Source: Oscillospiraceae bacterium (GTDB lineage: Bacteria; Bacillota; Clostridia; Oscillospirales; Ruminococcaceae). Taken from it: a stretch of DNA of 64,000 nt. Positions 15,409 through 61,241 of the stretch are shown here, piece after piece; the stretch's first letter is position 1, and every line of letters begins with the position of its first letter. Where the stretch lies: assembly GCA_902790675.1 (NCBI GenBank), contig CADASU010000002.1, forward strand, positions 186,001-250,000, in the 5' to 3' direction. The notes under the pieces are model-generated. The model made no database searches and was not told the origin of the DNA. It saw only the letters and a list, made by a program, of their open reading frames with translations. A program made the position numbers and the translations under genes.

Positions 15409-18012
15409 TTATTTTTTACCATAATAAGCTTCTTTAAACATATCTTTAATTTCACTTATTAATGGATATCTAGGATTAGCTCCCGTACACTGATCATCAA
15501 AAGCACGTTCAGACATTTCATCTAATGTCTTCAAGAAATCTTCTTCTGAAATTCCATAATCCTTAATTGTAGATTTAATTCCAACTTTTTCTTTTAATTT
15601 TTCGATTTCATCTATAAATTTGTTTAAAGTATCCCAGTCATCGTTACCTTTTATTCCTAAAAACTCCGCACATTCACAATAACGTCTTAACGTAATAGGA
15701 TATTTATATTGAGGAAATGTTCCCATTTTTGTTGGATTTTCTGAAGCATTGTATCTCATAACAATGGTTAAAAGCAGCGCATTAGCAATTCCATGTGGCA
15801 AATGGTGATATGCTCCTAATTTATGTGCCATTGAATGACAAACGCCTAAGAACGCATTCGCAAAAGCCATACCAGCTTCGGTTGCTGCTTCTGCCATTTT
15901 TTCTCTTGCCTCAACATCTTCAGAACCATTATCGTAAGCTCTAGGCAAATATTTAAAAATTGTCTTTATTGCACTTAACGCCAATCCATCAGTATATCCA
16001 GTCGCCATAATTGAAGCATATGCCTCTAAGGCATGAACCAAAGCATCAATTCCAGATGCACTTGTTAAGCCCTTAGGCGCATCCATCATTAAATCAGCAT
16101 CAATAATAGCCATATTTGGCATAAGTTCATAATCTGCCAAAGGATATTTTACTCCATTATTTTGATCTGTGATAACTGCAAAAGGAGTAACCTCAGAACC
16201 AGTTCCCGCCGAAGTGGGACACGCTACAAAATAAGCCTTGCTTCCCATTTTAGGAAATTGATATACTCTCTTTCTTATGTCCATAAATCGCATAGCAAGA
16301 TCTTGGAAATCAACATCGGGATGCTCATACATAACCCACATTATCTTAGCAGCATCCATTGCAGATCCTCCGCCCACAGCAATTATAACGTCTGGCTCAA
16401 AAGACTCCATAGCTTTTGCTCCCTCTTGAGCACATGCAAGAGTTGGATCTGGCTCTACGTTATAAAATGTATGATGAGTTATATCCATTTCCTCTAAATA
16501 TTTAGTTAAATTTTTAGTATATCCATTCTTATATAGGAAAGAATCTGTTACTATAAAAGCACGCTTCTTATTCAAATATTCTTTCAATTCGCGTATTGCA
16601 ACACCCATGCAACCTTTTTTAAAATAAACCTTTTGAGGTGCTCTAAACCAAAGCATATTTTCTCTCCTCTCAGCAACCTGTTTAATATTAAGTAGATTCA
16701 AAACACCTACATTATCGGAAACTGAATTTCCTCCCCAAGATCCGCATCCTAGCGTTAAAGAAGGAGTTAGCGCAAAATTATAAATATCCCCTATTCCACC
16801 TTGTGAAGATGGCATGTTTAATAAAACACGACATGTTTTCATTGCAGACTCAAATTTACTGATTTTATCCTTCTCAGTCAAAGAATTAATATAAATAGAT
16901 GATGTATGGCCCAATCCACCATCTTCAACCAAAGCCTGTGCTTTGGAAATAGCATCGTCAAAATCTTCCGCTTTATACATAGCTAAAATTGGCGATAATT
17001 TTTCATGAGCAAAAGCCTCTTCAAGTCCAACAGATTCAACTTCACCAATTAAAATTTTAGTATCCTCATCTACTTCAAAGCCAGCCAATTTAGCTATGGT
17101 AGACGGTTTTTGTCCAACAATCTTGGCGTTAAGGACCCCATCAATCAAAATTGTATCACGAACTTTTTGCAATTCCTCTGAATTTAAAAAGTAACAACCT
17201 CTTAATTTAAATTCGTTTTTAACTCTATCGTATATGTTTTTATTAACTATGCAAGATTGCTCAGATGCACATATCATTCCATTATCAAATGTTTTAGAAT
17301 GAATAATAGACATAACTGCCATTTTAATATCAGCAGATTCATCTATAACAGCAGGCGTATTTCCTGCACCAACACCAATAGCAGGTTTTCCTGAAGAATA
17401 TGCCGCTTTAACCATTCCTGGCCCACCAGTAGCAAGAATTATATCAGATTCTCTCATAGCCATATTAGTAAGCTCAAGCGAAGGCTCATCAATCCAAGAT
17501 ATAATATCTTTAGGCGCGCCAGCCTTAACTGCTGCATCTAAAACAACTTTAGCAGCATAAATAGTAGATTTTTTAGCTCTAGGATGTGGAGAAATAATTA
17601 TAGCATTTCTCGTTTTTAAAGCAATTAACGCTTTAAAAATCGCAGTAGAAGTCGGATTAGTCGTTGGAATAACAGCAGCAACTAACCCAATAGGCTCTGC
17701 TATTTTTTTTATTCCAAATTCCTTATCTTCCTCTATTATTCCACAAGTCTTTGTATATTTATACTTGTTATAAATATATTCAGATGCATAGTGATTTTTT
17801 ATAACCTTGTCTTCAACAATTCCCATTTTTGTTTCATCGACAGCCATTTTAGCCAACGAAATTCTTTGTTGATTTGCTGCAATTGCTGCTTTAAAAAATA
17901 TTTCGTCTACTTGCTCTTGTGTAAATTTTGCATATGCATTCTGAGCATCTCTCATTTTCTTAAGTTTAATTTCAAGTGCTTCAACACTATCAATCACACA
18001 TTCATTGTTCAT
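15409..18012 (-). CDS. adhE: Bifunctional acetaldehyde-CoA/alcohol dehydrogenase
   Basis: 867-residue two-domain enzyme converting acetyl-CoA to ethanol with two NADH; it normally assembles into spirosomes in the cytoplasm. Residues 1 to about 440 are the CoA-acylating aldehyde dehydrogenase, with catalytic Cys248 in GMICASEQS and the block [15 protein letters not shown]. Residues from about 455 are the iron-dependent alcohol dehydrogenase, with [10 protein letters not shown] for NADH and metal ligands in [20 protein letters not shown] and HHLPHG. The ATG has AGGAAGAG upstream. It has its own promoter and terminator, so it is a single-gene unit. It is the main reductive fermentation step visible in the window. 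Confidence 0.97.
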
Positions 18013-18114: not shown

Positions 18115-20061
18115 CTATTCAACTACAGCATATCCAACAAATTTAGCTGTTCTTATAAAATTTTGAATCTCTTCCTTGCTAATTTCAGAAATATTTTTCT
18201 TAGTTTCTGGCTTACTTGAAGAATATGGTTTATCTACAATTTCTTTCTTAATAACTTCTTCAGCTCCATAGTACTCAGGTGGACAAACCGCATCCAATTT
18301 ACATTTTTTATTAATAATATTATTTTTAACTAAATTAAATAATTCATCACTAACTACAAAATTTTTAACTTGCTCATTAAAATTATTTTTGAAAAAATGA
18401 GTTATATTGTCAAAAGCCACACTTTGATCTGAATAAAAGCAACAGCACCTTTCATCATTTGCTTCACTTCTTGTATACAAATTTTTATAAACAAAGCCTT
18501 TTTTTTGAAGCTCTTTGCTAACAAGCCCTCTATTTAAAATTCTCATAGCGAGTCGCGTCATTTCTTTATCATTATCAGCAAATGATACCTGATATCTACA
18601 ACCAACATTTTTAGATATATTTTTTTTGCATTTCAGAAAAGCTATTTTTTCAGGTTTTAAATCTTGTAATAAGCTTTCATCAATTCCTGAATTATCCTCA
18701 CAATCAATGATCTCATTGTTTTCTATTGTAAAAAATCTATCGCCAAATATGTCTCCAGAAAAAGCATACGCCCTCATTAAGTGTTCACAACTAACATTTG
18801 TAATTCCATATTTAGTAGTAGGAGAACAAAGCATATTAGCAATAGCCAATATATGATTAAAATTTTTAACTAAAACGCTTCTATCAAACTTTTTAGGGTC
18901 ATTGCTAGCTATAGCAATTTTTAAATATGGGCAGTCAACAGATTGACATAATTCTGCTTTGCAATCATCATATTTCTCCGTAACGTCAAATGCCTCATCT
19001 TCAAATATGTCATATTCAAATAATGGATCATTAATTGTGCTACATAAATTATCAAATGTTTTTATTTTATCATTTTTAACTCCCATTAAAGGATAAACCG
19101 CTACAGCACAATAATCATAATTTTCTGAAAAAATACCATTGGTTCTATCGACATCGTATTCTGAAAAAGACTCAAAATTACTCTTGTTCGGTAATCTATA
19201 ATCAACATCTATGTTCTTTCTATCATAGCCATTTAAAAAATCCTTATCCAACTTTGCCATAATCTTCTTAAAATGTTTACTTCTTATAACGGTTAAAGAA
19301 TTGGATGGATGGATATATTTATTATATGCATCACAAACATCACTATAACTACAATTAGCAATGTTTTCAGGCATGCCTCCAGGTTGAAATTTTAGTTTGT
19401 TATCACGATTAATTATTTCATGATTATAAATCTTATCTACATATGCAGACATAACGGACAATGACCCTACACCGCTAGCCATCTCAATAAACATTCGACC
19501 TCTTTTTAATATTGAGCCATCACTATTCTTAGTTTGATTAAAAACTTGCTTCTTGAAAATATTTTCATTATTCAAAAATTTTTTACTTTTCAATGAATTA
19601 ATCAAAAAATCTATATTTTCAAAACGGTCATTCTCATAACGAGCTGTAATCAAAAAACCCCATTCATGTGTATATGCTTCAAAATCACCAACTACATTAT
19701 CTTCAGGCTGCGAAACAATATCATCACATACACAATGTTCTAAGGCATGGGTAACACCGTTATCATTTTCGCTAGGAACTCTGTAAGCAATTTGAAGATT
19801 ATCATTATCAAGATTAATAAAACAAACAAATTGAGCTCCTGTTTTTTTATGCTCATAGTGCAGCACATAATTATCCTTTTCCGTAGCACTTACCTTTTGA
19901 CTTTTTAAAACTCGTTTTAATTCATAATTTTCAACTTGATTAGCCACACTTACAGCGTTAATTTCATTCTCGTCTATTGCTTGCACTAAAAAAATATTAG
20001 CACTCCACATAAAGTTGCAGAGCGCCAATGCAAGCAATATTACATGCTTTAATAGTTTCAT
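18115..20061 (-). CDS. Exported M16-family (PreP-like) peptidase homologue
   Basis: 648 residues starting with an N-terminal signal or anchor segment (about 5-27), so it acts outside the membrane. HALEH at 105-109 is the inverted zinc motif HxxEH of M16 peptidases, and the surrounding GVTHALEHCV matches the PreP/insulinase type. In the family a distal Glu within an N-E pair about 70-95 residues later completes the zinc site; the aligned position here reads VFNQTKN, i.e. Gln176. The protein is also about 300 residues shorter than typical M16C enzymes. It may therefore be weakly active or non-catalytic. Its ATG overlaps the rubrerythrin stop by 4 bases, and GAGGAG precedes it, so it is co-translated with rubrerythrin. 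Confidence 0.75.
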   Translation of the reverse strand: MKLLKHVILLALALCNFMWSANIFLVQAIDENEINAVSVANQVENYELKRVLKSQKVSATEKDNYVLHYEHKKTGAQFVCFINLDNDNLQIAYRVPSENDNGVTHALEHCVCDDIVSQPEDNVVGDFEAYTHEWGFLITARYENDRFENIDFLINSLKSKKFLNNENIFKKQVFNQTKNSDGSILKRGRMFIEMASGVGSLSVMSAYVDKIYNHEIINRDNKLKFQPGGMPENIANCSYSDVCDAYNKYIHPSNSLTVIRSKHFKKIMAKLDKDFLNGYDRKNIDVDYRLPNKSNFESFSEYDVDRTNGIFSENYDYCAVAVYPLMGVKNDKIKTFDNLCSTINDPLFEYDIFEDEAFDVTEKYDDCKAELCQSVDCPYLKIAIASNDPKKFDRSVLVKNFNHILAIANMLCSPTTKYGITNVSCEHLMRAYAFSGDIFGDRFFTIENNEIIDCEDNSGIDESLLQDLKPEKIAFLKCKKNISKNVGCRYQVSFADNDKEMTRLAMRILNRGLVSKELQKKGFVYKNLYTRSEANDERCCCFYSDQSVAFDNITHFFKNNFNEQVKNFVVSDELFNLVKNNIINKKCKLDAVCPPEYYGAEEVIKKEIVDKPYSSSKPETKKNISEISKEEIQNFIRTAKFVGYAVVE

Positions 20062-21969: not shown

Positions 21970-23445
21970 TTATATTATTATACAAATCAAACCATTACAT
22001 CCCTCATTAATTATTTTCTCAACTGTTTCTTGAAGTTTTATTCTTGCATCAGAAGGCATTCTATAAAGCTTATTATGTAAACCCTCATTAACCAATTCGT
22101 GTAAAGATTTTCCAAATATGTTAGATTCCCAAATTTTTTGCGGATTTTCTTCAAAGTCATTAAGAAGATACATTACAAGTTCCTCTGATTGCTTTTCAGA
22201 CCCCACAATTGGACTAACTTCAGTTGTTATTCCCGCTTTCATCATGTGTATTGACGGAGCTTCAGCTTTTAATCTTACTCCATATCTGCCACCTTGTTTA
22301 ACAATTTGAGGCTCCTCAAGTTTTAATTCTTCCATAGTTGGCATAACAATTCCATATCCTGTTGCCTCAACCTCTTCTAATGCACTAGCAACTCTTTCAT
22401 ATTTTTTCTTTATTTCAGCTAATTCAATCATACACGGCATTAATCCCGCTTCGCCATCAATTTCAATTCCCGTTGTTTCTCCCAAGATTTTATAAAACAA
22501 ATCTTCTTCTAGCTTAATAATAATCTTTGCAATTCCTGTTCCTAAATCAACTCCTTCAAAAATTGTCTTAACTATATTTTCAGAAGTTTCTATTTCAGTA
22601 ATTAAATTAGGGACATCATTAACAAAAATTTCTTTATTAAAAGTTGTTTTTATATGGTTATATATGTCATTTTTCAACCAATGCGTAGTATCTAACAAAG
22701 TAACCCATTTAGGCATATCAATTTCAATTTGACGAATAGGAAATCTATAAAGTATTTTTTCTAATACACATTCAATATCTCCTTCTTCTATATCTAAACA
22801 ATTTAATGCAATAGCATCAACACCATGCTTTTCTTTTATTGCATTAACCGCTTCACGCGCAGATTGAGACTCAGGATTATTACAATTTAATAAAACAACA
22901 AACGGCTTTTGAATGTCTTTCAGTTCACTAATGACTCTACTTTCAGCTTCTTCATATTCTTCTCTAGGTATATCACTTATTGAACCATCACTAGTAATAA
23001 CTAATCCTATAGTAGAATGTTCATTAATTACCTTTTGTGTTCCAACTTCGGCAGCCATATTAAAAGGAATCTCATCTTCAAACCATGGAGTTCTAACCAT
23101 TCGTGGTGCTTCATTTTCAATATATCCCAATGAGCTAGGCACAATATATCCAACACAATCTATCAATCTAACTCTTAATTTTATATTTTCTCCTACTTCC
23201 AATTCAGCAGCTTCTTCTGGAATAAATTTTGGCTCTGTTGTCATTATTGTCTTTCCTGCTGCAGACTGCGGTAGTTCATCCTTCGCTCTTTCCCTACGAT
23301 ACTCACTTTGTATATTTGGAATTACCATTTTTTCCATAAATTTTTTAATGAACGTAGATTTACCAGTACGTACAGGGCCAACTATTCCAATATATATGTC
23401 TCCGCCTGTTCGCATAGCAATATCACGGTAAATACTTTGTTCCAT
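21970..23445 (-). CDS. spoIVA: Stage IV sporulation protein A
   Basis: ATPase that polymerises on the forespore surface and forms the basement layer of the spore coat. 491 residues, essentially the family length. The P-loop GPVRTGKST is near residue 24, with the following TRAFAC-type segment RLIDCVGYIVPS; the C-terminus is the membrane-binding end. The ATG at 23445 is preceded by GAGGAGG at 6 nt; upstream in-frame starts lack ribosome sites. A mother-cell sigma-E promoter is expected from the family, but I could not fix one. Upstream and co-oriented is a DUF3794/LysM spore-envelope protein, so this is a spore-envelope pair. Confidence 0.98.
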   Translation of the reverse strand: MEQSIYRDIAMRTGGDIYIGIVGPVRTGKSTFIKKFMEKMVIPNIQSEYRRERAKDELPQSAAGKTIMTTEPKFIPEEAAELEVGENIKLRVRLIDCVGYIVPSSLGYIENEAPRMVRTPWFEDEIPFNMAAEVGTQKVINEHSTIGLVITSDGSISDIPREEYEEAESRVISELKDIQKPFVVLLNCNNPESQSAREAVNAIKEKHGVDAIALNCLDIEEGDIECVLEKILYRFPIRQIEIDMPKWVTLLDTTHWLKNDIYNHIKTTFNKEIFVNDVPNLITEIETSENIVKTIFEGVDLGTGIAKIIIKLEEDLFYKILGETTGIEIDGEAGLMPCMIELAEIKKKYERVASALEEVEATGYGIVMPTMEELKLEEPQIVKQGGRYGVRLKAEAPSIHMMKAGITTEVSPIVGSEKQSEELVMYLLNDFEENPQKIWESNIFGKSLHELVNEGLHNKLYRMPSDARIKLQETVEKIINEGCNGLICIII

Positions 23446-23556
23446 GTTTTTCCTCCTCATTAATGCAGCTAAAAATATGCAATATTTTGTTTTTTCTATG
23501 TTATTAAACTCTATGCAATAGATGTCCGCGATATGCAATATTTAACATATTTATAG

Positions 23557-26648: not shown

Positions 26649-28979
26649 TCATACCGTATTACTAAAAACAACTTTGCTTAATACTCTAAGTTCGTTATTT
26701 TTAGACGTTAAGATAATTTTGTCTCCTTTAACAATTTCTCCCGATAAAATCTTATCCGAAATAACACTTTCAATTTTCTTGGCAACTATAGTTTTTATAG
26801 CCCTTGCTCCTTTCGATTTGTCTATGTCAAAACCCAATATATATTGCACAACAGATTCATCATAATTTAATTCATATCCTAAATTTTCCACTCTATTCGC
26901 AATTTGCTTAAGCTGTTTTAAAACTATAAGCCTTAATATATCGTATGATAACTTGTCAAATACAATTATTTCATCTAATCTTCCTAAAAACTCAGATCTA
27001 AATGTTTTTTTCAATTCACTTTCCACTAAATTTTTACATTGATTGTTATTGAAGTTGCCTACAGAAAAACCTATGTTTTTTCTTTCTTCTAAAATATCAG
27101 CAGCAACATTTGACGTTAAGATTATTATACAATTTTTAAAATTAATCTTTTTTGAGTGTGAATCTGTTAAAACCCCTTCATCCATAATTTGCAATAATAT
27201 ATTAAGCACATCTTTATGTGCTTTTTCTATTTCATCAAAAACCACAACAGAATATGGCTTCCTTCTTACCTGGTCTGCCAAACTAATTGAAGTGTCAAAC
27301 CCAACATATCCAGGAGGCGCACCTATCATTTTAGAAATAGAATGTGGCTCCATATATTCAGACATATCTAATTTTATAAGATTTTTTTCATTTCCAAATA
27401 TCGATATAGAAAGAGCCCTACACAAAGCAGTCTTTCCAACGCCAGTTGATCCAACAAACATAAAATTACCGATTGGCCTGTTTTCACAACTAACGCCAGT
27501 TCTATTTCTCTTGATAGCTTGTGTTAACACTTTTATTGCCCTTTTTTGTCCAAATATGCAGTTTTGAAGTTCTAGTTCTAAAAACATAAGCCTATCTCTC
27601 TCACTCTTTGTAATTTCAAAAACAGGTATACCTGTCCAGCAAGAAACAACTTCTGCAACATCATTAAATGTTACAATATTTCTTGATGCTAAATTATCTT
27701 TATTAATTTTGTTAGATGTGATTTTTTTATTAACACCTTCTATAATGTCATTATTTTCACAATAATATTTTTTTCTAGATGCCGCTTCGTCTATTACATC
27801 AATTGCCTTATCTGGCAAAAACCTGTCATTTATATATCTTTTAGACAACTTTATTGCTGCAACAATAGCATCATCAGATATTTTTAATTTATGAAAGTTT
27901 TCATATTTTTCTTTAACTCCAAACAAAATATTTTTTGATTGTTCCTCATCAGGCTCTTCAACCAAAATAGGCTGAAACCTCCTTTCAAGCGCAGAATCTT
28001 TTTCTATTTTTCTAGAATATTCTTCTAGTGTTGTTGCGCCAATTAACTGAATATCTCCTCTGGCCATTTTAGGTTTTAATATATTTGCAGCATCCATCGC
28101 TCCTTCTGCCGATCCTGCACCAACTATATTGTGAATTTCATCCAAAAACAAAATTATATCTTCATTTTTTTCTACTTCATCTAAAATCAATTTTATTCTT
28201 TCTTCAAAGTCTCCTCTATATTTAGCGCCCGACAAAATTGCTGAAAAATCTAAGGATATTATTTTTTTCATTTTCAAATTGCTGGGAACACTTCCTGCAA
28301 CAATTCTTTGTGCTAAGCCTTCAATAACAGCTGTTTTGCCAACACCAGGTTCCCCAACTAAACACGGATTATTCTTTTTTCTTCTGGTTAAAACTTGAAT
28401 TATTCGCTCAAGTTCAGTGTCTCTTCCAACTAAAGGATCTAGATGTTCTTCTCTAGCTAGAAGCGTTAGGTCTTTTCCATATTTTTCTAATACATTAGAT
28501 TTTTGGCTGTGTTTTTTCTTTTTTCTAAATTGTCTATAAATATCAAAATCATAAGATATACACTCATTATATATTTCTTGAGATAATCCGCCTATTTCCT
28601 GCAAAATTAGCATCCCATAGCTTTCTTTTTCTTGCAAAAAACTAATTAATAAATGTTCTGTCCCAGCCAATTCAACATTCATGTTTTTTGCTTCTTCAAG
28701 TGATTTTTTCATTATTGTCCTTACGCGAGGTGTAAAATCCTTTGTGGTTAACTTTTCAGGCAAGCATATCCCTACAACTGATATAAGTTTATTTTCAATT
28801 CGATTAGGCGTTACACAATTTTTATTTAAAATAAACGCCGAAACACTATCTTTGGCAGCAGCTAATCCATATAATAGATGTTCTGTTCCAATACAACTAT
28901 AGCCTAATTTTTCAGCTTCAAGCAAAGCCAAACTTAATGCCTCACATGCAAGGTTGGTAAATCCTGAAAATTTATACAT
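26649..28979 (-). CDS. ClpC/ClpA-type AAA+ unfoldase without the middle domain
   Basis: 776 residues. Clp_N repeat domain at about 1-145, first AAA+ module with Walker A GEPGVGKTA near 209-217 and Walker B FLDEIHN, second AAA+ module with GSTGVGKTA and VFDEIEKAH. An IGF tripeptide in the second module (KNIGFSVG) fits the ClpP-docking loop. Between the modules there is only a short linker, so the coiled-coil M/UVR domain to which MecA or McsB adaptors bind in true ClpC is missing. It is probably a ClpP partner with other adaptors, or a specialised ClpC paralogue. GGAGGG precedes the ATG. Confidence 0.85.
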   Translation of the reverse strand: MYKFSGFTNLACEALSLALLEAEKLGYSCIGTEHLLYGLAAAKDSVSAFILNKNCVTPNRIENKLISVVGICLPEKLTTKDFTPRVRTIMKKSLEEAKNMNVELAGTEHLLISFLQEKESYGMLILQEIGGLSQEIYNECISYDFDIYRQFRKKKKHSQKSNVLEKYGKDLTLLAREEHLDPLVGRDTELERIIQVLTRRKKNNPCLVGEPGVGKTAVIEGLAQRIVAGSVPSNLKMKKIISLDFSAILSGAKYRGDFEERIKLILDEVEKNEDIILFLDEIHNIVGAGSAEGAMDAANILKPKMARGDIQLIGATTLEEYSRKIEKDSALERRFQPILVEEPDEEQSKNILFGVKEKYENFHKLKISDDAIVAAIKLSKRYINDRFLPDKAIDVIDEAASRKKYYCENNDIIEGVNKKITSNKINKDNLASRNIVTFNDVAEVVSCWTGIPVFEITKSERDRLMFLELELQNCIFGQKRAIKVLTQAIKRNRTGVSCENRPIGNFMFVGSTGVGKTALCRALSISIFGNEKNLIKLDMSEYMEPHSISKMIGAPPGYVGFDTSISLADQVRRKPYSVVVFDEIEKAHKDVLNILLQIMDEGVLTDSHSKKINFKNCIIILTSNVAADILEERKNIGFSVGNFNNNQCKNLVESELKKTFRSEFLGRLDEIIVFDKLSYDILRLIVLKQLKQIANRVENLGYELNYDESVVQYILGFDIDKSKGARAIKTIVAKKIESVISDKILSGEIVKGDKIILTSKNNELRVLSKVVFSNTV

Positions 28980-33716: not shown

Positions 33717-34226
33717 TTATTTTTGTAAATCTATGTTTATAGTCTTTTGGGGAAATTTTCCATTTAAAATATCAGGTAAATATTCAGGCAACACCGTTGG
33801 ATAAATAATATCTGAACTTTGTATTATTTCATCTAAAGAAAACCACTTAAACGATTTTATAGTAGTTTGCTCTTCATAAGTTAAATTTTTTAAAACAATT
33901 TTACTATTTTTAGTTTTAGCAACTAAAAATTTTTGATTTATATCATTTAATTTACCACATATATTTAATTTAAAGTTACCTTGCCACACGATATTGGGAT
34001 AAAATTCAACGTCAATTTCTTTTAATCCAGTTTCTTCAAATAGCTCACGCTTAGCCGCTTGCAATATAGTTTCATTTTCTTCTATTTTACCACCTACTAA
34101 TTGCCAAAATCTCCCATTATAGCTACCATCAGAATTTCTTATCTTTTTATCATCAGTAGATAAAAGTAATAATTCATTTTTATCATTTATTAATATTATT
34201 TTTATACTGTTTCTTTTTTTGCTCAT
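33717..34226 (-). CDS. NUDIX hydrolase
   Basis: 169 residues with a complete Nudix box at 45-67, seen as GGKIEENE then AAKRELFEETGL, which binds Mg2+ and cleaves a nucleoside diphosphate linked to another moiety. Substrate unknown; MutT-like 8-oxo-dGTPase or a nucleotide-sugar pyrophosphatase are both possible. It sits downstream of the nucleotide transporter gene on the same strand, although a terminator separates them, so any functional link through imported nucleotides is speculative. Confidence 0.9.
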   Translation of the reverse strand: MSKKRNSIKIILINDKNELLLLSTDDKKIRNSDGSYNGRFWQLVGGKIEENETILQAAKRELFEETGLKEIDVEFYPNIVWQGNFKLNICGKLNDINQKFLVAKTKNSKIVLKNLTYEEQTTIKSFKWFSLDEIIQSSDIIYPTVLPEYLPDILNGKFPQKTINIDLQK

Positions 34227-34343: not shown

Positions 34344-35690
34344 TTAACACACTATGGTATTTGAATCAACAGCTTTCTTGTATGTTCTTCCGAGATAAAT
34401 AGCAATAAGGAACCATGCAACAACAAACACAAATCCTAAGCCACTAGTAAGAAGACGATATGTTGCTGTTCCCAATGTTGAATACAACATATTTACACCA
34501 GCACCGCCCTCTTTGGAAAATCTGGATCCAAAAGTTTCAATCCAAGCTTGTGCTTTAGACTTCGCATCTTTACTCGTAGGTATATACAATTGTTTAAGTG
34601 CTGGTCCACTTAAAGCATAGTTAATAGCTTTAGACGCAATCATCAAGCAGAATAAGAAAGTTAAACTATTAATAGTTAAAAATCCAAATATTGCCAAACC
34701 GAATAAAACAGGAACCATTGACAAAGCAATACCAATACCAAGCTTTTTAGTAATATTACTAATTCCAAGAAGCAAGAACACCAAAGAAACTGTATTTACA
34801 CACGAACTATAAAGACCCAAATACTTTGAAAGTTCTACTCCGCTATACACCTGACTAGCTGACAATTTAAAGTTAAAATCAAAAACAGTAACTATAAATT
34901 CAAAAAAGAAATTAACAGCAAACATTCCAAGCAAATATTTATGAGTAAAAAGTAATTTCAGCCCTTCTGTAAAACCTGTCTTCTCTTTTTTCTTTGAATC
35001 ATCACTACCTTCTTTAACAACTGACTCTAATAAATCATCTGGCGTACTTCTTAAAAAGTATCTTACTAGAAGTGTAACTAGCAAAGTTAAAACTGCAAGA
35101 ACAGCTATAGATATCGCATCTGATTTTACTCCTATACTTATGGGCAATGTAATCAATAACAAAGGAAGGAGAATTCCGCCCAACTGACCAAATGTATATA
35201 TCAAAGGGAACCCATGCTTAGCCGACTCAGACTTAGTAATATCTGTTGCAAACGACCAAAACAACGCAATTATGATTGAACCAAAACTCTCAACAAAAAA
35301 ATACCAAAAATAGCCAAGAACAACAGTTACAATACTAGGCTGGATACTTCCGCTTTGAAAAGCCCAAATAAACAATGAATAGAGCAACATAACAGAACCA
35401 AAATAAATTGGCGGCATTAACGAAAGCAACTTAGACTTCGCCACAAAATCCAAAATTTTGGTATAAATAGCCACAAAAAATATCATACAAATAAGCGAAA
35501 CTGTTTTAGCATAAGGTTGATAAACCGCACCAACCAATGAATTAAACAAAGAATCTTTAAGTGGCCTCATTGACCAATATATTCCAATTAGCATAAAAAA
35601 TATTGAGCCCATACGCACAAATTTTCTAAATTCTCTTTCTTCGAATTTACCAAAATTAAACTTGCATATAGCCATTAAAAACTTTATCAT
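34344..35690 (-). CDS. ATP/ADP translocase-type nucleotide transporter (NTT/TLC family)
   Basis: 448-residue membrane protein with about 11-12 hydrophobic helices. Family marks: YWSMRPLKDSLF near 38-49 (position of the conserved K-D pair in helix 1), ALFWSFATDITKSESAKHGF in the middle third, followed by PLIYTFGQLGGILLP, and the C-terminal segment KQLYIPTSKDAKSKAQAWIE. NTT carriers exchange host ATP for ADP or import nucleotides in Chlamydiae, Rickettsiales and plastids. Some bacterial homologues carry other nucleotides, so ATP/ADP exchange is not proven here. The ATG has GGAGGG about 9 nt upstream. It has its own consensus promoter and a 240-nt leader. Confidence 0.85.
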   Translation of the reverse strand: MIKFLMAICKFNFGKFEEREFRKFVRMGSIFFMLIGIYWSMRPLKDSLFNSLVGAVYQPYAKTVSLICMIFFVAIYTKILDFVAKSKLLSLMPPIYFGSVMLLYSLFIWAFQSGSIQPSIVTVVLGYFWYFFVESFGSIIIALFWSFATDITKSESAKHGFPLIYTFGQLGGILLPLLLITLPISIGVKSDAISIAVLAVLTLLVTLLVRYFLRSTPDDLLESVVKEGSDDSKKKEKTGFTEGLKLLFTHKYLLGMFAVNFFFEFIVTVFDFNFKLSASQVYSGVELSKYLGLYSSCVNTVSLVFLLLGISNITKKLGIGIALSMVPVLFGLAIFGFLTINSLTFLFCLMIASKAINYALSGPALKQLYIPTSKDAKSKAQAWIETFGSRFSKEGGAGVNMLYSTLGTATYRLLTSGLGFVFVVAWFLIAIYLGRTYKKAVDSNTIVC

Positions 35691-36079
35691 TTAATTAACC
35701 CTCCAAAATTATATATTTAATTAAAATATCAACAACACCCAAAATATAAAAACTAACCCCTCCAATCTATTTACATTAAATCAATTTTTAAAGTATTGTT
35801 TCTAATAATAATTATAATATACAAAAAACAATAACGCATTTAAAAAGCACACAAAAATCCGTATGTCTAAATATTAAATACACTCAAAGACAAACAGCAT
35901 TAGCTTAACAAATCTCCTACGTAATTATATCTAATTTACCATAACATGTCAAGATTAAAAGTAAAATTTAAATAAATTATCGCAATTTTTCGCCATATTT
36001 TTCAAACTAACATATACAAAATGTAATAAATTCATAAAATATATTTTATTAAAACTTTATTGAAAAATTTCACCAAAAG
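35691..36079 (-). promoter_or_regulatory. 389-bp gap: promoter and long leader of the nucleotide transporter
   Basis: On the minus strand TTGACA (35947-35952), a 17-nt spacer and TATAAT (35924-35929) form a consensus promoter, giving an untranslated leader of about 230 nt. Within the leader AGGAG precedes an 8-codon ORF (near 35903) and GGAGGGG occurs near 35758; neither has a clear role. The stretch 35953-36079 is plain A+T-rich spacer after the DUF3006 gene. Confidence 0.6.
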
Positions 36080-36295
36080 CTATTTATTAAATAAATTCTC
36101 TTGCATTCGATAATTTTCTTTCTTCTTATTCAAAGTCATATCTATATCAATAAAGCAACCATTATCGTCTATATTTAAAACATCACCTTCATGCACACTA
36201 GAAGGAAGTTTGCTTCTCAATATTTTTACTACTTTGAGATCTTCACTCTCACAAATCGCAAAATTCCCCTCAAATCTATCAATTGAAACATACAT
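36080..36295 (-). CDS. DUF3006 family protein
   Basis: 71-residue protein starting MYVSIDRFEGNFAI and containing LPSSVHEGDVLNID, the DUF3006 pattern of a small beta-barrel-like domain of unknown function. It lies 3 bp after a ComEC-like hydrolase, the neighbour with which DUF3006 is often fused or paired, so the two very likely work together. Confidence 0.85.
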   Translation of the reverse strand: MYVSIDRFEGNFAICESEDLKVVKILRSKLPSSVHEGDVLNIDDNGCFIDIDMTLNKKKENYRMQENLFNK

Positions 36296-36298
36296 GTT

Positions 36299-37201
36299 CT
36301 ATTTCCTTCCTTTCTGAGATTTTATATCAATTTTTTTGCCATCAGTTGAAATCACAATTGTTCCATCACAATCAGTTCTATATATTTTAGCATCCTTTAG
36401 TCTTTTCATAACTTCAGCACTAGGATGATTATATGTATTGTCCTTTCCAACTTCTATAACAAAAATTTTTGCTGCAACAGCATCCAAAAACTTTTTCGTA
36501 TTCGAAGTTTTGCTGCCATGATGGTTTAATTTAAATACATCTGATTTTATCAATTGATTACTATTTAATAAATCTTTTTCAGATTCTTTTTCCATATCTC
36601 CACAAAATAAAAACGACGTATCTTGATATACATATCTGGCTGCAACAGACCAGTCATTAAGTTCAGTATAATTCTTTCCAACAGGTCCTAATATAGTAAG
36701 AGAGCCCTCACCAACTTTATAATGTTTTCCCATTTCTGCTCTATCGACAGATATTTTTTTGTCCTTTATCAATTTCAAAAAATTTTTATAAGTTGATGTT
36801 GTAGGAATCATGTTTTCTGGAATTTCTGGAATTATTATACGATCGATATCAAAATTTTTAGCTACAGTCAAAAATCCCCCAATATGATCTGTATGTGGAT
36901 GTGTTCCAATAAATAAGTCTATTTTTTTTATACCTAATGATTTTAAATATCTAGTAACAACATTGCCCCTGTCTACTTCTCCCGCATCAATTAATACTGA
37001 TTTCCCATGGTCTAATATTAATTCACAATCACCTTGTCCAACATCAATATAATGAATTGAAACATCATCGTTAATCAATAAATTGTTATTGTTAAATTTA
37101 TCTCCAAAATCACCATTAAAATAGTGCCACCCCAAAGACATTCCAGCCGAAAGTAATAAAATAATTATAATATATCTAAACTTAAAGCGGTTTTTTCTCA
37201 A
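36299..37201 (-). CDS. Exported ComEC-like metallo-beta-lactamase-fold hydrolase
   Basis: 300 residues: an N-terminal membrane anchor (about 9-26), then a metallo-beta-lactamase domain with YIDVGQGDCEL, the metal site THPHTDHIGG and a later LNHHGSKTSN. It resembles the C-terminal domain of the competence protein ComEC, without its channel part, and the many stand-alone 'ComEC/Rec2-like' hydrolases of Clostridia, perhaps an extracellular nuclease or phosphodiesterase. Start TTG at 37201 with GGAGG 9 nt upstream. It is flanked by ftsK/spoIIIE upstream and DUF3006 downstream. Confidence 0.85.
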   Translation of the reverse strand: MRKNRFKFRYIIIILLLSAGMSLGWHYFNGDFGDKFNNNNLLINDDVSIHYIDVGQGDCELILDHGKSVLIDAGEVDRGNVVTRYLKSLGIKKIDLFIGTHPHTDHIGGFLTVAKNFDIDRIIIPEIPENMIPTTSTYKNFLKLIKDKKISVDRAEMGKHYKVGEGSLTILGPVGKNYTELNDWSVAARYVYQDTSFLFCGDMEKESEKDLLNSNQLIKSDVFKLNHHGSKTSNTKKFLDAVAAKIFVIEVGKDNTYNHPSAEVMKRLKDAKIYRTDCDGTIVISTDGKKIDIKSQKGRK

Positions 37202-37224: not shown

Positions 37225-39594
37225 TTAATTGTTATTACTGCCAAGCTGCATTTCTAAAAATTGCTGTTTAGATATCAAAATTTGCCTCGACTTACTTCCA
37301 CACTGCGGCCCAACTATTCCTCTTTCTTCTAATTCATCCATAATTCTAGCGGCACGCGCATATCCAAGTTTCAATCTGCGCTGTAAAAACGAAGTAGATG
37401 CCTGCTCATTCTCTACAACAACTTCAATAGCAGCAGAAATCATAGGATCCTGATCGTCAAAACCTCCGCCATTACTAGATTGATTTTTAGAGTCAGTTGC
37501 TAAAGACTGCCTATCAATTTCCTCTATAATTTCATTGCTATACTCTACTTGATCATTAGATTTTATAAATTCAACAACCTTTTCAACTTCCTCATCGCTA
37601 ACAAAGCAACCTTGAACCCTAACAGGCTTTTGCTGGTCCATCGGACAATATAACATATCGCCTTTGCCAAGCAATTTTTCAGCTCCAGAAGAATCTATTA
37701 TTGTTCTAGAATCCACTTGAGAAGAAACTGTAAAAGCAATTCTACTTGGAATATTTGCCTTTATAACACCAGTAATTACATCAACTGATGGCCTTTGAGT
37801 TGCAATAACAAGGTGCATGCCCGCAGCACGCGCCATTTGAGCCAATCTGCAAATATAATCTTCAACTTCTCTAGAGGCAGCCATCATAAGATCAGCAAGC
37901 TCGTCTATTATAATAACTATTTGCGGCATATTTAAATATGGCTCACCTTCCGAATTAACTTTTCCCGATTTTACTAATCTATTATAATTTTTTAAATCTC
38001 TAACACCTGTTTCTGCAAATATTTTATATCGATTTAGCATTTCAGTAACTGCCCATCCTAAAGCACCAGCAGCTTTTTTGGGATCAGTAACTACAGGCAC
38101 CAGCAAATGAGGAATGCCATTATATACTCCTAATTCAACTACTTTAGGATCTATCATTAATAATTTAATTTGTTCTGGTGAACTCTTATATAACAAAGAC
38201 ACTATCATGGAATTGATACAAACAGATTTTCCTGAACCAGTCGCTCCTGCAATTAAAATATGTGGCATCTTAGAAATATCAGCTATTTTTACATTACCTG
38301 CAATATCTTTTCCCAAAGCAAAAGAAAGAAAACTTTTTGATTTAGAAAATTCTTCACTAGAAACAATTTCTCTTAAAGAAACCATATCCTTTTTTTTGTT
38401 CGGAACTTCTATTCCAACAGCAGCTTTATTAGGTATGGGAGCTTCTATTCTCACCCCACCTGCTGCCAAATTTAAAGAGATGTCATCAGTAAGATTGGTT
38501 ATTTTACTAATCTTAACTCCAGCAGAAGGCTGCAATTCATATCTTGTAACAGAAGGACCTCTACATATATCGACAATTCTGGTTTCAACGCCAAAACTTT
38601 TTAAAGTATCAACAAGACAGTCTGCATTTGCCCGTAATTCTCCAGAAACATCCACATTATTAGCTGATTTTGATTGATTTAAAAAGTCTAACGAAGGAAA
38701 AACATAATCACTGGTATTTGAAGGTTCACTTAAATTATTACAACGAACAATATTTTTATCTTTAATTTCCATAGATGCTTTTTGAACCAAATTGTCTAAC
38801 TGTACATCAACATTCTTTAACGGCTGTTCTGCATTATTTATAACAACATCATCAGAATTATTTAAAATTTTTTCTGATTTTTTAGTTTTTTTGTGATCAG
38901 TCAAACTTGGCACTCTAAATTTTCTAGATTTTGGCGAAAATTTCGACGAATCTTCAATAGGAATGTCTATATTGAACTTGTTGTTTTTCTTTCTAACTTG
39001 TACTTTTTCTTCAATTTTTCTAACAGGTGTATATACAGTTTTAAAAAAGCCTATTAACGTTGAACCAGTAAATATTAAAAAGAATACAAATATCAATATC
39101 CAGTCTAAAGCAATAGCTGCACTTCTTCCCACAGCATATTCTAATGGAAGTCCAATAGCTCCTCCAATAATTCCTCCCCCACTGCTCAAAACGCCATCAT
39201 TCCATATTTTTACTACACAATCTATTAAAGACATTCCAACATAACTCGGATGAAAGCACACTTGAACTTGAGTACAAATTAATAAAAATAATATAATAAT
39301 TTGCCACAGTTTACCTTTGAAAGATTTAAATGAAAACAAAATCGCTGCAGCCATAATCAATATTCCAACAAAATAAGCTAAAACCCCAAACAATCCTAAA
39401 AAAACATCATGAATTGCTTTCCATAAATTTTGTCCTTGTATAAAGACCAAAAAAAACAGAAACAAACCACTGGCGAAAAGTAACAATATATTTAACTGAC
39501 TAAGTTCTTTGTTCTTAGTCTTTTTAACTGATCTTCTTTTTTTCCTTGTAGCATTTGCTTTTGAAACTAAAGAACTGCTTTTTTTCCTAGCCAT
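37225..39594 (-). CDS. FtsK/SpoIIIE family DNA translocase
   Basis: 789 residues. Four N-terminal membrane helices (about 30-185), a charged linker to about 310, then the RecA-like motor with Walker A GATGSGKS, Walker B VIIIDELADLMM and the ERF-like segment RMAFT-type block 'PSRIAFTVSSQVDSRTI'. A C-terminal gamma winged-helix domain (SFLQRRLKLGYARAARI) recognises KOPS/SRS sequences. In spore formers this protein pumps the chromosome into the forespore and clears DNA from division septa. The ATG at 39594 has GGGAG upstream. Downstream of tepA on the same strand, as in Bacillus. Whether it is SpoIIIE or SftA/FtsK in role cannot be settled. Confidence 0.95.
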   Translation of the reverse strand: MARKKSSSLVSKANATRKKRRSVKKTKNKELSQLNILLLFASGLFLFFLVFIQGQNLWKAIHDVFLGLFGVLAYFVGILIMAAAILFSFKSFKGKLWQIIILFLLICTQVQVCFHPSYVGMSLIDCVVKIWNDGVLSSGGGIIGGAIGLPLEYAVGRSAAIALDWILIFVFFLIFTGSTLIGFFKTVYTPVRKIEEKVQVRKKNNKFNIDIPIEDSSKFSPKSRKFRVPSLTDHKKTKKSEKILNNSDDVVINNAEQPLKNVDVQLDNLVQKASMEIKDKNIVRCNNLSEPSNTSDYVFPSLDFLNQSKSANNVDVSGELRANADCLVDTLKSFGVETRIVDICRGPSVTRYELQPSAGVKISKITNLTDDISLNLAAGGVRIEAPIPNKAAVGIEVPNKKKDMVSLREIVSSEEFSKSKSFLSFALGKDIAGNVKIADISKMPHILIAGATGSGKSVCINSMIVSLLYKSSPEQIKLLMIDPKVVELGVYNGIPHLLVPVVTDPKKAAGALGWAVTEMLNRYKIFAETGVRDLKNYNRLVKSGKVNSEGEPYLNMPQIVIIIDELADLMMAASREVEDYICRLAQMARAAGMHLVIATQRPSVDVITGVIKANIPSRIAFTVSSQVDSRTIIDSSGAEKLLGKGDMLYCPMDQQKPVRVQGCFVSDEEVEKVVEFIKSNDQVEYSNEIIEEIDRQSLATDSKNQSSNGGGFDDQDPMISAAIEVVVENEQASTSFLQRRLKLGYARAARIMDELEERGIVGPQCGSKSRQILISKQQFLEMQLGSNNN

Positions 39595-39646
39595 TTTATC
39601 TCCCACAAATTAAACATTTTTTAAAAACTTATGATATCTAGGAGTA

Positions 39647-45025: not shown

Positions 45026-46222
45026 TTAATTTAAAATTTGATTTGATTTTTCAACCATAGTTTCAGCAAACACACCATATCCTCTGGTTGGATCATTAAC
45101 AAAAACATGTGTTATTGCTCCAACCAGCTTTCCATTTTGTAATATGGGGCTACCACTCATTCCTTGAACAATCCCGCCTGTTTTTTTCAAAAGCTTTTGG
45201 TCTGTAATTCTGACTACATAATTTCTATTATTTTGCTTAAAATCTATTGATTCAATCTCAATATCATAGCTTTGAGGAACATCCCCAAATATTGTGCTAT
45301 ATATAGTTGCTTTGCCTATTTTAACTTCTTGCTTAAGCCCAATTAAAACAGGTTCATGTATTTTAATAGGCTTAATCAATCTGCCAAATAAACCACAGTC
45401 ATCATTAATTTTTACATTTCCTATAGATTCATTATTAGAAAATATTCCACATAATTCCCCTGGTGATCCAGCCGTACCGTGCTTAATATCATTTATATAT
45501 GCACCAACAATTTCACCTCGTCCAAGCGGAAGAATATTTCCGGTATCTACATCGCATATTGGATGACCCAGTCCTCCAAAAACTCCATCTTCTGTGCAAA
45601 AAGTTATTGTGCCTATTCCTGCTGAACTATCTCTAACCCAAAGTCCCGCTATCCACTTGTCATCTTTAAAGGAATATGCAGGCTTTAATTTTGTTTCATA
45701 TTCCTCAAAATTTCTTTTATATTTTAATCGTAGTAACTTACCTTCTGAAGATGACACAACCTCTTTTAATTCGCTATTACTACTTATCTTATTGCCATCA
45801 ACAGACGTTATAACATCGCCAATTTTTAAGCCAGCTTCCTTAGCAGGAGACTTAATTTCATTCTCACAAAGCACATCCTTAATGTCTATAACCATGACCC
45901 CATCAGTCAAAAGTTTTACTCCAAACGGCGTTCCGCATGGCATAACTTTTATTTTATCTATCTCCCTAACATAAATTTTCTTAATTGGTATAATTCCAAG
46001 CAACGTGACATCATATTCTTTATTATATTTTTCATCAGAATCATATAAACCATCATTTTCTAATTCTTTAAATTTAACTCCCAACCAACTTGATTTTATA
46101 CTTTGATCACTATAAACCATATACGTGTCATGTATAACATAGGAATAATAACTAACTATCCCCATAACTCCGCTTATTAACACAATTATAAATATAATAA
46201 TTGATCTTAAAAGTCTATTCAA
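45026..46222 (-). CDS. spoIVB: Stage IV sporulation protein B, S55 signalling protease
   Basis: 398 residues. N-terminal membrane segment, a PDZ domain (about 95-185, with EAGLKIGDVITSVDG), then the S55 peptidase: the likely catalytic His in GGLGHPICDVDTG and Ser in VQGMSGSPIL. The forespore secretes SpoIVB across the inner membrane, where it cuts SpoIVFA and triggers pro-sigma-K processing. The TTG at 46222 is taken as start because AGAAGGTG lies 9 nt before it; a GTG at 46234 overlaps that site. Its usual neighbours recN and spo0A are not here. Confidence 0.95.
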   Translation of the reverse strand: MNRLLRSIIIFIIVLISGVMGIVSYYSYVIHDTYMVYSDQSIKSSWLGVKFKELENDGLYDSDEKYNKEYDVTLLGIIPIKKIYVREIDKIKVMPCGTPFGVKLLTDGVMVIDIKDVLCENEIKSPAKEAGLKIGDVITSVDGNKISSNSELKEVVSSSEGKLLRLKYKRNFEEYETKLKPAYSFKDDKWIAGLWVRDSSAGIGTITFCTEDGVFGGLGHPICDVDTGNILPLGRGEIVGAYINDIKHGTAGSPGELCGIFSNNESIGNVKINDDCGLFGRLIKPIKIHEPVLIGLKQEVKIGKATIYSTIFGDVPQSYDIEIESIDFKQNNRNYVVRITDQKLLKKTGGIVQGMSGSPILQNGKLVGAITHVFVNDPTRGYGVFAETMVEKSNQILN

Positions 46223-46308
46223 AGCAAATAACACCTTCTATTATTTTAAAATTTATTATATTTATAATATGTCAAATATCTAAAAATACATACCCTACAT
46301 TTTCACAA

Positions 46309-59000: not shown

Positions 59001-61241
59001 TTAATTTAATGAAAATATAACTTCACCATCTTGCTCAGAAAGTGATATTTTTTCTAAGCCATCTTCAGAATCAATAATTAAATTTGCAATTAAATCTTCT
59101 ACTTTTTTTCTAATTTCTTTTCTCAAATCACGAGCCCCATATTTTCCATCTCTCAAAGGCTCTATTAAATAATTAACTAGTTTATCATCATATTCAAAAT
59201 CAATTCCTCTTTCCGATAGAACCTCTTTTGTTTCATTTAACATCAAGCAAGCAATAGATTTCAAATTGCTATCGGTTAATTTGTTAAACACAACTATTTC
59301 ATCAACACGAGCAATAAATTCAGGCCTCAAAAAGCCTTCTAAAGCCTTTCTAGCTTTCTCGCTACTCATTTGATTATATGTTTTATCAAATCCAACAACG
59401 CCAGTTTTGTCAGCGCTTCCAGCATTTGAGGTCATAATTATAATAGTATTTTCAAAATTAACAGATCTGCCATGAGAGTCTTTTACCTTTCCTTCATCTA
59501 AAATCTGTAAAAGTAAATTCATAACATCTGGATGTGCTTTTTCAATCTCATCAAATAGTATTACAGAATATGGCCGCCTTCTAACTTGCTCAGTTAACTG
59601 CCCCGCATCATCATACCCAACATATCCTGGAGGAGAGCCAGTCAGTTTAGAAACCGCATGCTTTTCCATATATTCAGACATATCTAAACGTATTAACGTA
59701 TCTACTCCATCAAACAGCGTATTAGATAATACTTTAACCAATTCCGTCTTACCAACTCCAGTAGGGCCAACAAATATAAAGGATGCTGGCCTACGACGCT
59801 TGGAAATCTGAACCCTATGGCGCCGAACTGCCATAGAAACCAAATCAACAGCAACATCTTGACCCACTATTTTGGTTTTTAATTCCATATTTAAATTTTT
59901 CAATTTAGAATTTTCACTTTGTTCTATTTTAGATGCAGGTATACCTGTCCACAACTCAATAACCCTAGCCAAATCTTTATGCTCAACAAATATTGAAGAA
60001 ACGTCTTCACTTGCACTCTTAATTTCTTGATCTACCTTACTAAGTTCAGCCTTTATTTCAGCAATTTTTTGATAATTAGGTTCACTCGTTTCAGTTTCCA
60101 ATTCCTCTTCTTGCTTTTTCAACTTTTTTTGATTATCTAACAAGCGTTCATAGTGAGTTATTTCCTTGCTACGCAAAGACCTGCAAGCACATGCCTCATC
60201 TAAAAGATCAATTGCTTTATCCGGCAAATATCTATCATTTATATATCTTTCCGACAAAACAACACAATCAAATAATGTCTGAGGTTTTACTTTTACATTA
60301 TGGTGTTTCTCGTAATATGCCTTTATTCCTTTTAGTATATTTATACTATCTTCTACGTTTGGTTCTTCAACAGTTACTGGCTGAAAGCGCCTCTCTAATG
60401 CAGAATCTTCTTCAATATACTTACGATATTCATTAAATGTTGTAGCACCAATAATCTGAATTTCTCCTCTAGATAGCGCTGGCTTCATTATATTAGCCGC
60501 ACTCATCGAACCACCTTCTGAATCACCAGTTCCAATAAGTGTGTGTATTTCATCAATAAATAATATAATGTTTCCGGCTTTTTTCACTTCTGATATTAGC
60601 CCTTTAACTCTGCTCTCAAACTGCCCTCTAAATTGAGTTCCTGCAACCAAAGCCGTCATATCAATTAAATATATTTCTTTGTTCATCAGCTTATATGGAA
60701 CATCTCCCATGGCCACTTTTTGAGCTATTCCCTCAACTATAGCCGTTTTACCAACTCCAGGCTCTCCTATAAGACATGGATTGTTCTTAGTTCTTCTAGA
60801 TAAAATTTGAATCATTCTATATATTTCTTTATCTCGCCCAATAACTCTATCTAACTTATTAAACTTAGCTTGTTTGGTTAAATTAACTCCAAAATTATTT
60901 AAATATTTATATTTAGATTTTTCTTTTTTCTTTTTAGTATCTGTTGCATTATCATTGGAAGCACCGTGATCTGTCATTTCTTTGTTAGTAAAACTCGATA
61001 TGAAAGGATTTAACAGGCCTGCTCCACCATGTTCAAAGTCCTCTCCTCCAAACATACCCATTATTTGATTACTAACATTTTCCAAATCTTCTATTCCAAT
61101 TTTATCCGCTATTTCATTAATTTGCGGTATATTTAGTTCTTTGGCACATTTAAAGCAAAGACCCTCAGAAACAGGCTTTCCATCAATTTCTTTGCTAACA
61201 AATATAACTGCCATTCTTTTTTTACATCTACTACAGAGCAT
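59001..61241 (-). CDS. clpE: ClpE-like AAA+ unfoldase with N-terminal zinc finger
   Basis: 746 residues. Instead of a Clp_N domain it begins with a four-cysteine zinc finger, C3-x2-C6-x22-C29-x2-C32, the arrangement of ClpE and McsA. Two AAA+ modules follow: GEPGVGKTA with FIDEIHT, and GPTGVGKTE with FDEIEKAHPDV. A coiled-coil middle domain (about 395-455) separates them. A VGF tripeptide (GVVGFDKTY) fits the ClpP-docking loop. In Bacillus ClpE is a heat-induced ClpP partner; a CtsR operator is not obvious here. AAAGGAG precedes the ATG. Confidence 0.9.
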   Translation of the reverse strand: MLCSRCKKRMAVIFVSKEIDGKPVSEGLCFKCAKELNIPQINEIADKIGIEDLENVSNQIMGMFGGEDFEHGGAGLLNPFISSFTNKEMTDHGASNDNATDTKKKKEKSKYKYLNNFGVNLTKQAKFNKLDRVIGRDKEIYRMIQILSRRTKNNPCLIGEPGVGKTAIVEGIAQKVAMGDVPYKLMNKEIYLIDMTALVAGTQFRGQFESRVKGLISEVKKAGNIILFIDEIHTLIGTGDSEGGSMSAANIMKPALSRGEIQIIGATTFNEYRKYIEEDSALERRFQPVTVEEPNVEDSINILKGIKAYYEKHHNVKVKPQTLFDCVVLSERYINDRYLPDKAIDLLDEACACRSLRSKEITHYERLLDNQKKLKKQEEELETETSEPNYQKIAEIKAELSKVDQEIKSASEDVSSIFVEHKDLARVIELWTGIPASKIEQSENSKLKNLNMELKTKIVGQDVAVDLVSMAVRRHRVQISKRRRPASFIFVGPTGVGKTELVKVLSNTLFDGVDTLIRLDMSEYMEKHAVSKLTGSPPGYVGYDDAGQLTEQVRRRPYSVILFDEIEKAHPDVMNLLLQILDEGKVKDSHGRSVNFENTIIIMTSNAGSADKTGVVGFDKTYNQMSSEKARKALEGFLRPEFIARVDEIVVFNKLTDSNLKSIACLMLNETKEVLSERGIDFEYDDKLVNYLIEPLRDGKYGARDLRKEIRKKVEDLIANLIIDSEDGLEKISLSEQDGEVIFSLN

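Follow-up and report, generated by a model that had tools for sequence, protein, structure and literature searches.

The window (the whole 64-kb stretch of DNA analysed here) carries on its reverse strand an open reading frame with an ATG start that encodes a carrier of 448 residues, lying exactly where an earlier reading made from the letters alone (the sequence-only reading) had placed it (Table 1). A conserved block of three genes, ftsK, a metallo-beta-lactamase-fold gene (MBL) and a DUF3006 gene, stands upstream of it and a NUDIX hydrolase gene follows downstream. Elsewhere the window holds the fermentation gene adhE, enzymes of the threonine branch and the sporulation genes spoIVA and spoIVB, as expected of the spore-forming clostridial genome that had been proposed. 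We also record a 648-residue protein, beside a rubrerythrin gene, that matched nothing in Pfam or NCBIfam at our thresholds, and two different Clp/ClpB-like ATPases, both scoring under the ClpA and ClpB cut-offs.

Table 1. Coordinates of the carrier gene, its signals and critical codons, and other genes of the window
Feature	Position	Strand	Basis and remarks
Short-subfamily NTT/TLC carrier, 448 aa, 12 transmembrane helices	34344..35690	-	ORF, Pfam, PDB search, AlphaFold2, Foldseek
K62 codon (AtNTT1 K155)	35505..35507	-	Alignment; K in 52/53 subfamily members
E134 codon (AtNTT1 E245)	35289..35291	-	Alignment; E in 52/53 subfamily members
D271 codon (AtNTT1 E385)	34878..34880	-	Alignment; D in 53/53 subfamily members, E in classical NTTs
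K393 codon (AtNTT1 K527)	34512..34514	-	Alignment; K in 53/53 subfamily members
C-terminal Cys codon	34347..34349	-	
Ribosome-binding site GGAGGG, 8 nt upstream of ATG	35699..35704	-	Alignment
Perfect sigma-A-type promoter TTGACA-N17-TATAAT	35924..35952	-	Kept in 5/5 species of the genus with the carrier
NUDIX hydrolase, next gene downstream of the carrier	33717..34226	-	Pfam; here only in the source genome and its nearest relative G005
DUF3006 protein, closing the conserved block upstream of the insertion point	36080..36295	-	Pfam, locus comparison
Metallo-beta-lactamase-fold protein resembling the ComEC C-terminal domain, empty-site anchor	36299..37201	-	Pfam, NCBIfam, locus comparison
FtsK/SpoIIIE, anchor of the conserved block ftsK-MBL-DUF3006	37225..39606	-	Pfam, locus comparison
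adhE	15409..18012		NCBIfam
648-aa protein	18115..20061	-	
spoIVA	21970..23538		
Clp/ClpB-like ATPase	26649..28979	-	
spoIVB	45026..46234		
Clp/ClpB-like ATPase	59001..61241	-	

The Pfam TLC profile PF03219 aligned residues 17-435 of the carrier with model positions 19-489 of 491 (E 1.2e-23), and the score of 84 bits against a cut-off of 21 bits places the protein in the family over nearly its full length, whilst MFS_1 matched only below its cut-off in the same Pfam search. Sequence searches of the PDB retrieved only the plastid AtNTT1 (E 1e-15) and the ADP,ATP carrier 9j3n (E 8e-10), which is named in the structure library as a Chlamydia pneumoniae translocator. The AlphaFold2 model, for which 53 natural relatives served as input, has 12 long helices (pLDDT 87.7, pTM 0.87), and the top five Foldseek matches to it in the PDB were all NTT structures, the best of them AtNTT1 with a query-normalised TM of 0.81, whereas other MFS folds reached at most 0.67 among the 50 best matches listed; the predicted fold is closer to solved NTTs than to other members of the MFS. 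The sequence-only reading had proposed a TLC-family carrier with about 12 helices, an RPLKDS block in helix 1 and a LFWSFATDITKSESAK segment, and all of this is borne out, the two motifs occupying residues 42-47 and 143-158, respectively. Placement among ordinary MFS drug-efflux pumps, which it had named as one outcome that would overturn it, fails both on profile (MFS_1 below cut-off) and on fold (NTT structures rank first). Against its nearest relative the gene exhibits a dN of 0.045 and a dS of 0.715 (dN/dS ~0.06), and since dS far exceeds dN it is a maintained gene under purifying selection. On these sequence and model comparisons we regard the carrier as a real member of the NTT family belonging to a divergent subfamily.

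The divergence is evident in TIGR00769, the NCBIfam model of NTP/NDP exchangers, which gave the carrier 85.8 bits against a curated cut-off of 387.2 bits, and in the tree, where the classical NTT clade excludes the carrier, which falls in a separate clade with a support of 100. Its assignment to the TLC family stands, but a position inside the classical NTTs of Chlamydia, Rickettsia and plastids does not. The carrier shares with the classical proteins (Rickettsia Tlc1, Chlamydia Npt1, plastid AtNTT1) the 12-helix NTT fold, the four critical charges, the RxxKD motif in helix 1 and the LFW motif in helix 4, yet it is some 60-100 residues shorter, carries substitutions at positions fixed in them and ends in an invariant Cys (53/53 subfamily members, from several phyla). 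Searching genome contigs for relatives gave 80 loci, all of which form one clade far from the classical NTTs: clostridial copies, many from rumen or goat gut, are 55-93% identical to the carrier, and copies in Holosporales and other Alphaproteobacteria, Chlamydiae, Dependentiae and a few others are about 43-56% identical and show the same conserved motifs. All 53 subfamily members examined match PF03219. The expectation of a family centred on intracellular bacteria was right.

In AtNTT1 the charged residues K155, E245, E385 and K527 are reported to be crucial for transport (PMC10654386). The carrier keeps the charge at all four positions, to which the sequence-only reading had drawn attention, as K, E, D and K; the single E to D change, at E385, is likewise given as conservative in EhNTT2 (PMC10654386). 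Other columns are fixed in both groups but differ between them, including AtNTT1 K491 to N, D496 to G, K499 to L and G414 to N in the short subfamily, and because these fixed classical positions are substituted, the substrate may differ. The main rival to nucleotide exchange follows from this, namely that the short subfamily re-uses the NTT fold for another solute, such as NAD, another cofactor nucleotide or a phosphorylated metabolite exchanged against phosphate. Several genomes encode both NTT types (e.g. G302, G311, G313, G315 and G316), which suggests non-redundant roles, and a LysR-type regulator is encoded divergently right next to the gene, on its upstream side, in 30 of the 73 short-NTT loci with at least 1 kb of upstream sequence, mostly in Chlamydiae and Alphaproteobacteria (examples are L022:4826-5869(-), L037:4988-5866(-) and L019:5089-5925(-)), which suggests metabolite-responsive control; among these 73 loci it occurs at no clostridial or termite-Holosporales locus, a difference between the clostridial copies and many of their relatives. 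There is also a precedent in the wider family, in the NAD/ADP exchange of PamNTT4 (PMC6995639). Set against this are the four retained charges themselves, critical for nucleotide transport, and the three termite Holosporales examined (0.5-0.8 Mb), in which the short type is the sole PF03219 protein and the PurH and PyrB markers are absent, so that nucleotides must come from somewhere. The probable PamNTT4 group (the copies of G332, G333 and G335, identified indirectly) moreover falls on the classical side of the tree, and only two of 19 Parachlamydiaceae have the short type; an identity of the short type with PamNTT4 is unsupported. Transport of another solute is in our view distinctly less probable than nucleotide exchange, though a serious contender.

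Two further kinds of copy were encountered in the survey. A third TLC-like type of ~415 aa, very divergent, is present in Chlamydiae genomes (L140, L126, L142), and two small genomes of the same family as the source genome, G093 and G180 (0.8-0.9 Mb), have second NTT-type copies on very long branches (L095, L096) which are possibly the published clostridial translocase II.

Five genomes of the genus have ftsK-MBL-DUF3006 followed by the NTT gene (the G004 contig ends short of ftsK, and G005 has an intervening response-regulator gene), whilst G001 and G006, both without the carrier, show a clean empty site, with smpB, recR and dnaX immediately after DUF3006, and G007, also without it, has an unrelated gene there. 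These three congeners form a single rpoB clade, and the pattern is what a single insertion in the common ancestor of the five carrier genomes would leave, although ancestral gain with later loss would be formally compatible with it. That the gene came from an intracellular bacterium contaminating the assembly is out, as the same locus and flanks recur in five genomes, and a 93% identical copy on an 825-kb contig also counts against it. The codon composition is neighbour-like, with a GC3 of 0.26 for the carrier and 0.16-0.28 for its neighbours, and the search for phage or plasmid carriage gave no match.

All clostridial copies form one clade (100/100), whose sister in the carrier trees is a group of termite-gut Holosporales, with a support of 99. 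The copies of the genus are nearest to that of G316, with 77% identity in the NTT but only 71.6% in rpoB, whereas the congener G002 shares 77% of its carrier and 86% of its rpoB with the source genome. A vertical topology, in which the other clostridial copies group together without the genus, was rejected (p 0.019); taken with the G316 identities, this makes a transfer between clostridial lineages likely, although the topology test is not a strong one, and vertical inheritance inside Clostridia is disfavoured. The carrier is likely to have entered the genus horizontally, out of a lineage of bacteria that dwell in protists. Its ultimate origin was probably a Holosporales-like bacterium, and the immediate donor was probably related to G316 and the reduced-genome Clostridia near it.

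The source genome is 1,192,693 bases (1.19 Mb) long with an estimated completeness of 100% and a GC content of about 31% in the window, and its nearest relatives are MAGs from rumen and goat gut. Small size, low GC and the termite-gut sister clade of the gene make the host-associated life that had been suggested plausible. The genus comprises eight small genomes (0.8-1.6 Mb), with and without the carrier, and is placed by rpoB as sister to G019, a 3.0-Mb genome of another genus; the rpoB data reject a grouping of every small genome into one clade (p 1e-5). Two other reduced groups, g68 + g87 (0.7-0.9 Mb) and G311-G316, have classical NTTs (G314 excepted) and are not united by rpoB, and one or both are probably the published Acutalibacteraceae 'small genome clade' (PMC10579323). 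In that clade ATP/ADP translocases I and II were described from Ca. Improbicoccus and Ca. Paraimprobicoccus, which are protist-associated, and endospores were seen in the clade (Takahashi 2023, PMC10579323). The likeness to our genus lies in reduced-genome Clostridia, probably of the same family, with carriers of horizontal origin from intracellular bacteria. The source genome differs in having the short type only, without classical copies, in its independent position by rpoB (which does not support a place inside the published endosymbiont clade), in keeping purine and pyrimidine markers, V-type ATPases and fermentation genes and in lacking small-GTPase effectors of the kind known from that clade; clear eukaryotic-type small-GTPase genes were present only in G315 and G316. 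By rpoB the genus is an independent reduced lineage, separate from the published clade of 'energy parasites'.

The source genome does not show the loss of nucleotide synthesis and enolase that marks the Takahashi clade. A PurH-type AICAR transformylase is present in all eight genomes of the genus, whilst searches of Holosporales and of the other reduced Clostridia found none, and PyrB is kept in the source genome, whereas many reduced relatives with classical NTTs are without it; each pathway was judged here by a single marker family, from which its completeness is extrapolated. There are also two V-type ATPase A/B gene pairs and a divergent enolase under the family cut-off (L190:2706-3893(+), contig 6 of the source genome, G000). 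The enolases of the source genome and G005 score 274-300 bits, against 651 in a related large-genome species, and no enolase was detectable in the six other genomes of the genus. These markers would describe a reduced yet partly self-sufficient spore former.

Upstream of the carrier, TTGACA-17-TATAAT is the only conserved promoter, the region being otherwise diverged across the five species, and an Rfam search of the leader found no riboswitch, its one match being a microRNA family far under threshold and outside the leader. The conserved sigma-A-type promoter predicts that the carrier is made in vegetative growth, which argues against a forespore-specific role. The sequence-only reading, which had noted the sporulation genes, had suggested a repurposed carrier that fills the forespore with nucleotides, and a supply of energy to the forespore may be considered alongside. 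With this promoter kept in five species (sporulation-sigma elements were not scanned systematically), with a patchily inserted gene that is missing from three congeners and with a subfamily found mostly in non-sporulating phyla, we consider this the least probable of the readings, and a very improbable one.

Fold, charges and descent together support a nucleotide carrier, and our preferred reading, at a probability of roughly one half, is a vegetative nucleotide exchanger, with ATP/ADP as the first candidate substrates, that supplements energy in a protist-associated life. The protein would sit in the cell membrane and counter-exchange nucleotides by alternating access, using the pore charges K62, E134, D271 and K393, most likely taking host ATP (or another NTP) in return for ADP with or without phosphate. 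As the bacterium keeps its own nucleotide-synthesis and energy-metabolism markers, it would not strictly depend on the carrier, which would top up its energy or nucleotides during a host-associated phase. The persistence of nucleotide synthesis makes import of nucleotides less compelling, and the missing small-GTPase effectors also count against this reading. No nucleotide transport was seen when certain members of the wider family, S. negevensis NTT4 among them, were assayed (PMC5381601).

The same markers bear on the suggestion of a free-living cell scavenging nucleotides released in gut or rumen. Scavenging out of need finds no support in a genome that keeps both the purine and the pyrimidine marker, intracellular lineages dominate the subfamily, and free nucleotides are presumably short-lived in the rumen; the gut and rumen origin of the nearest relatives, the presence of small genomes with and without the carrier in one genus and the occurrence of NTTs in free-living organisms (PMC5381601) speak for it, and on balance we hold it to be improbable. 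A carrier working outwards, by which the bacterium would feed ATP to its protist host, is more doubtful still. TlcA of Ca. Azoamicus ciliaticola is an NTT of an anaerobic ciliate symbiont, thought to derive from Holosporales-like bacteria, and differs from our carrier in its proposed role, an ATP/ADP exchange with the ciliate that the symbiont powers (PMC7969357); NTT antiport is in principle reversible and the source genome keeps V-type ATPases and fermentation genes, but the common use of the family is import by the symbiont.

NTTs in Clostridia were already published, from another lineage of probably the same family (PMC10579323), and what is new here is the short subfamily, the independent lineage and the retained biosynthesis. 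The case also points to a widely transferred transporter subfamily, with no experimentally characterised member, or other experimental work on it, found in the literature searched. Tentatively, and with more doubt than for the exchanger itself, the short NTT branch may be a distinct transporter type with its own substrate, a transferable 'host-dependence' gene passed among unrelated protist-dwelling bacteria, in which case the genus would represent the stage just after acquisition and before the loss of biosynthesis.

ATP/ADP translocases are regarded as a hallmark, and sometimes as the trigger, of intracellular life. Within this one genus there are species with and without the carrier, an unoccupied insertion site, indications that the gene was inserted once, and carrier genomes in which nucleotide-synthesis markers persist. 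Whether the carrier came before the gene losses or after them can therefore be tested directly, and the gain of such a carrier may be one of the first moves towards an existence within protists.
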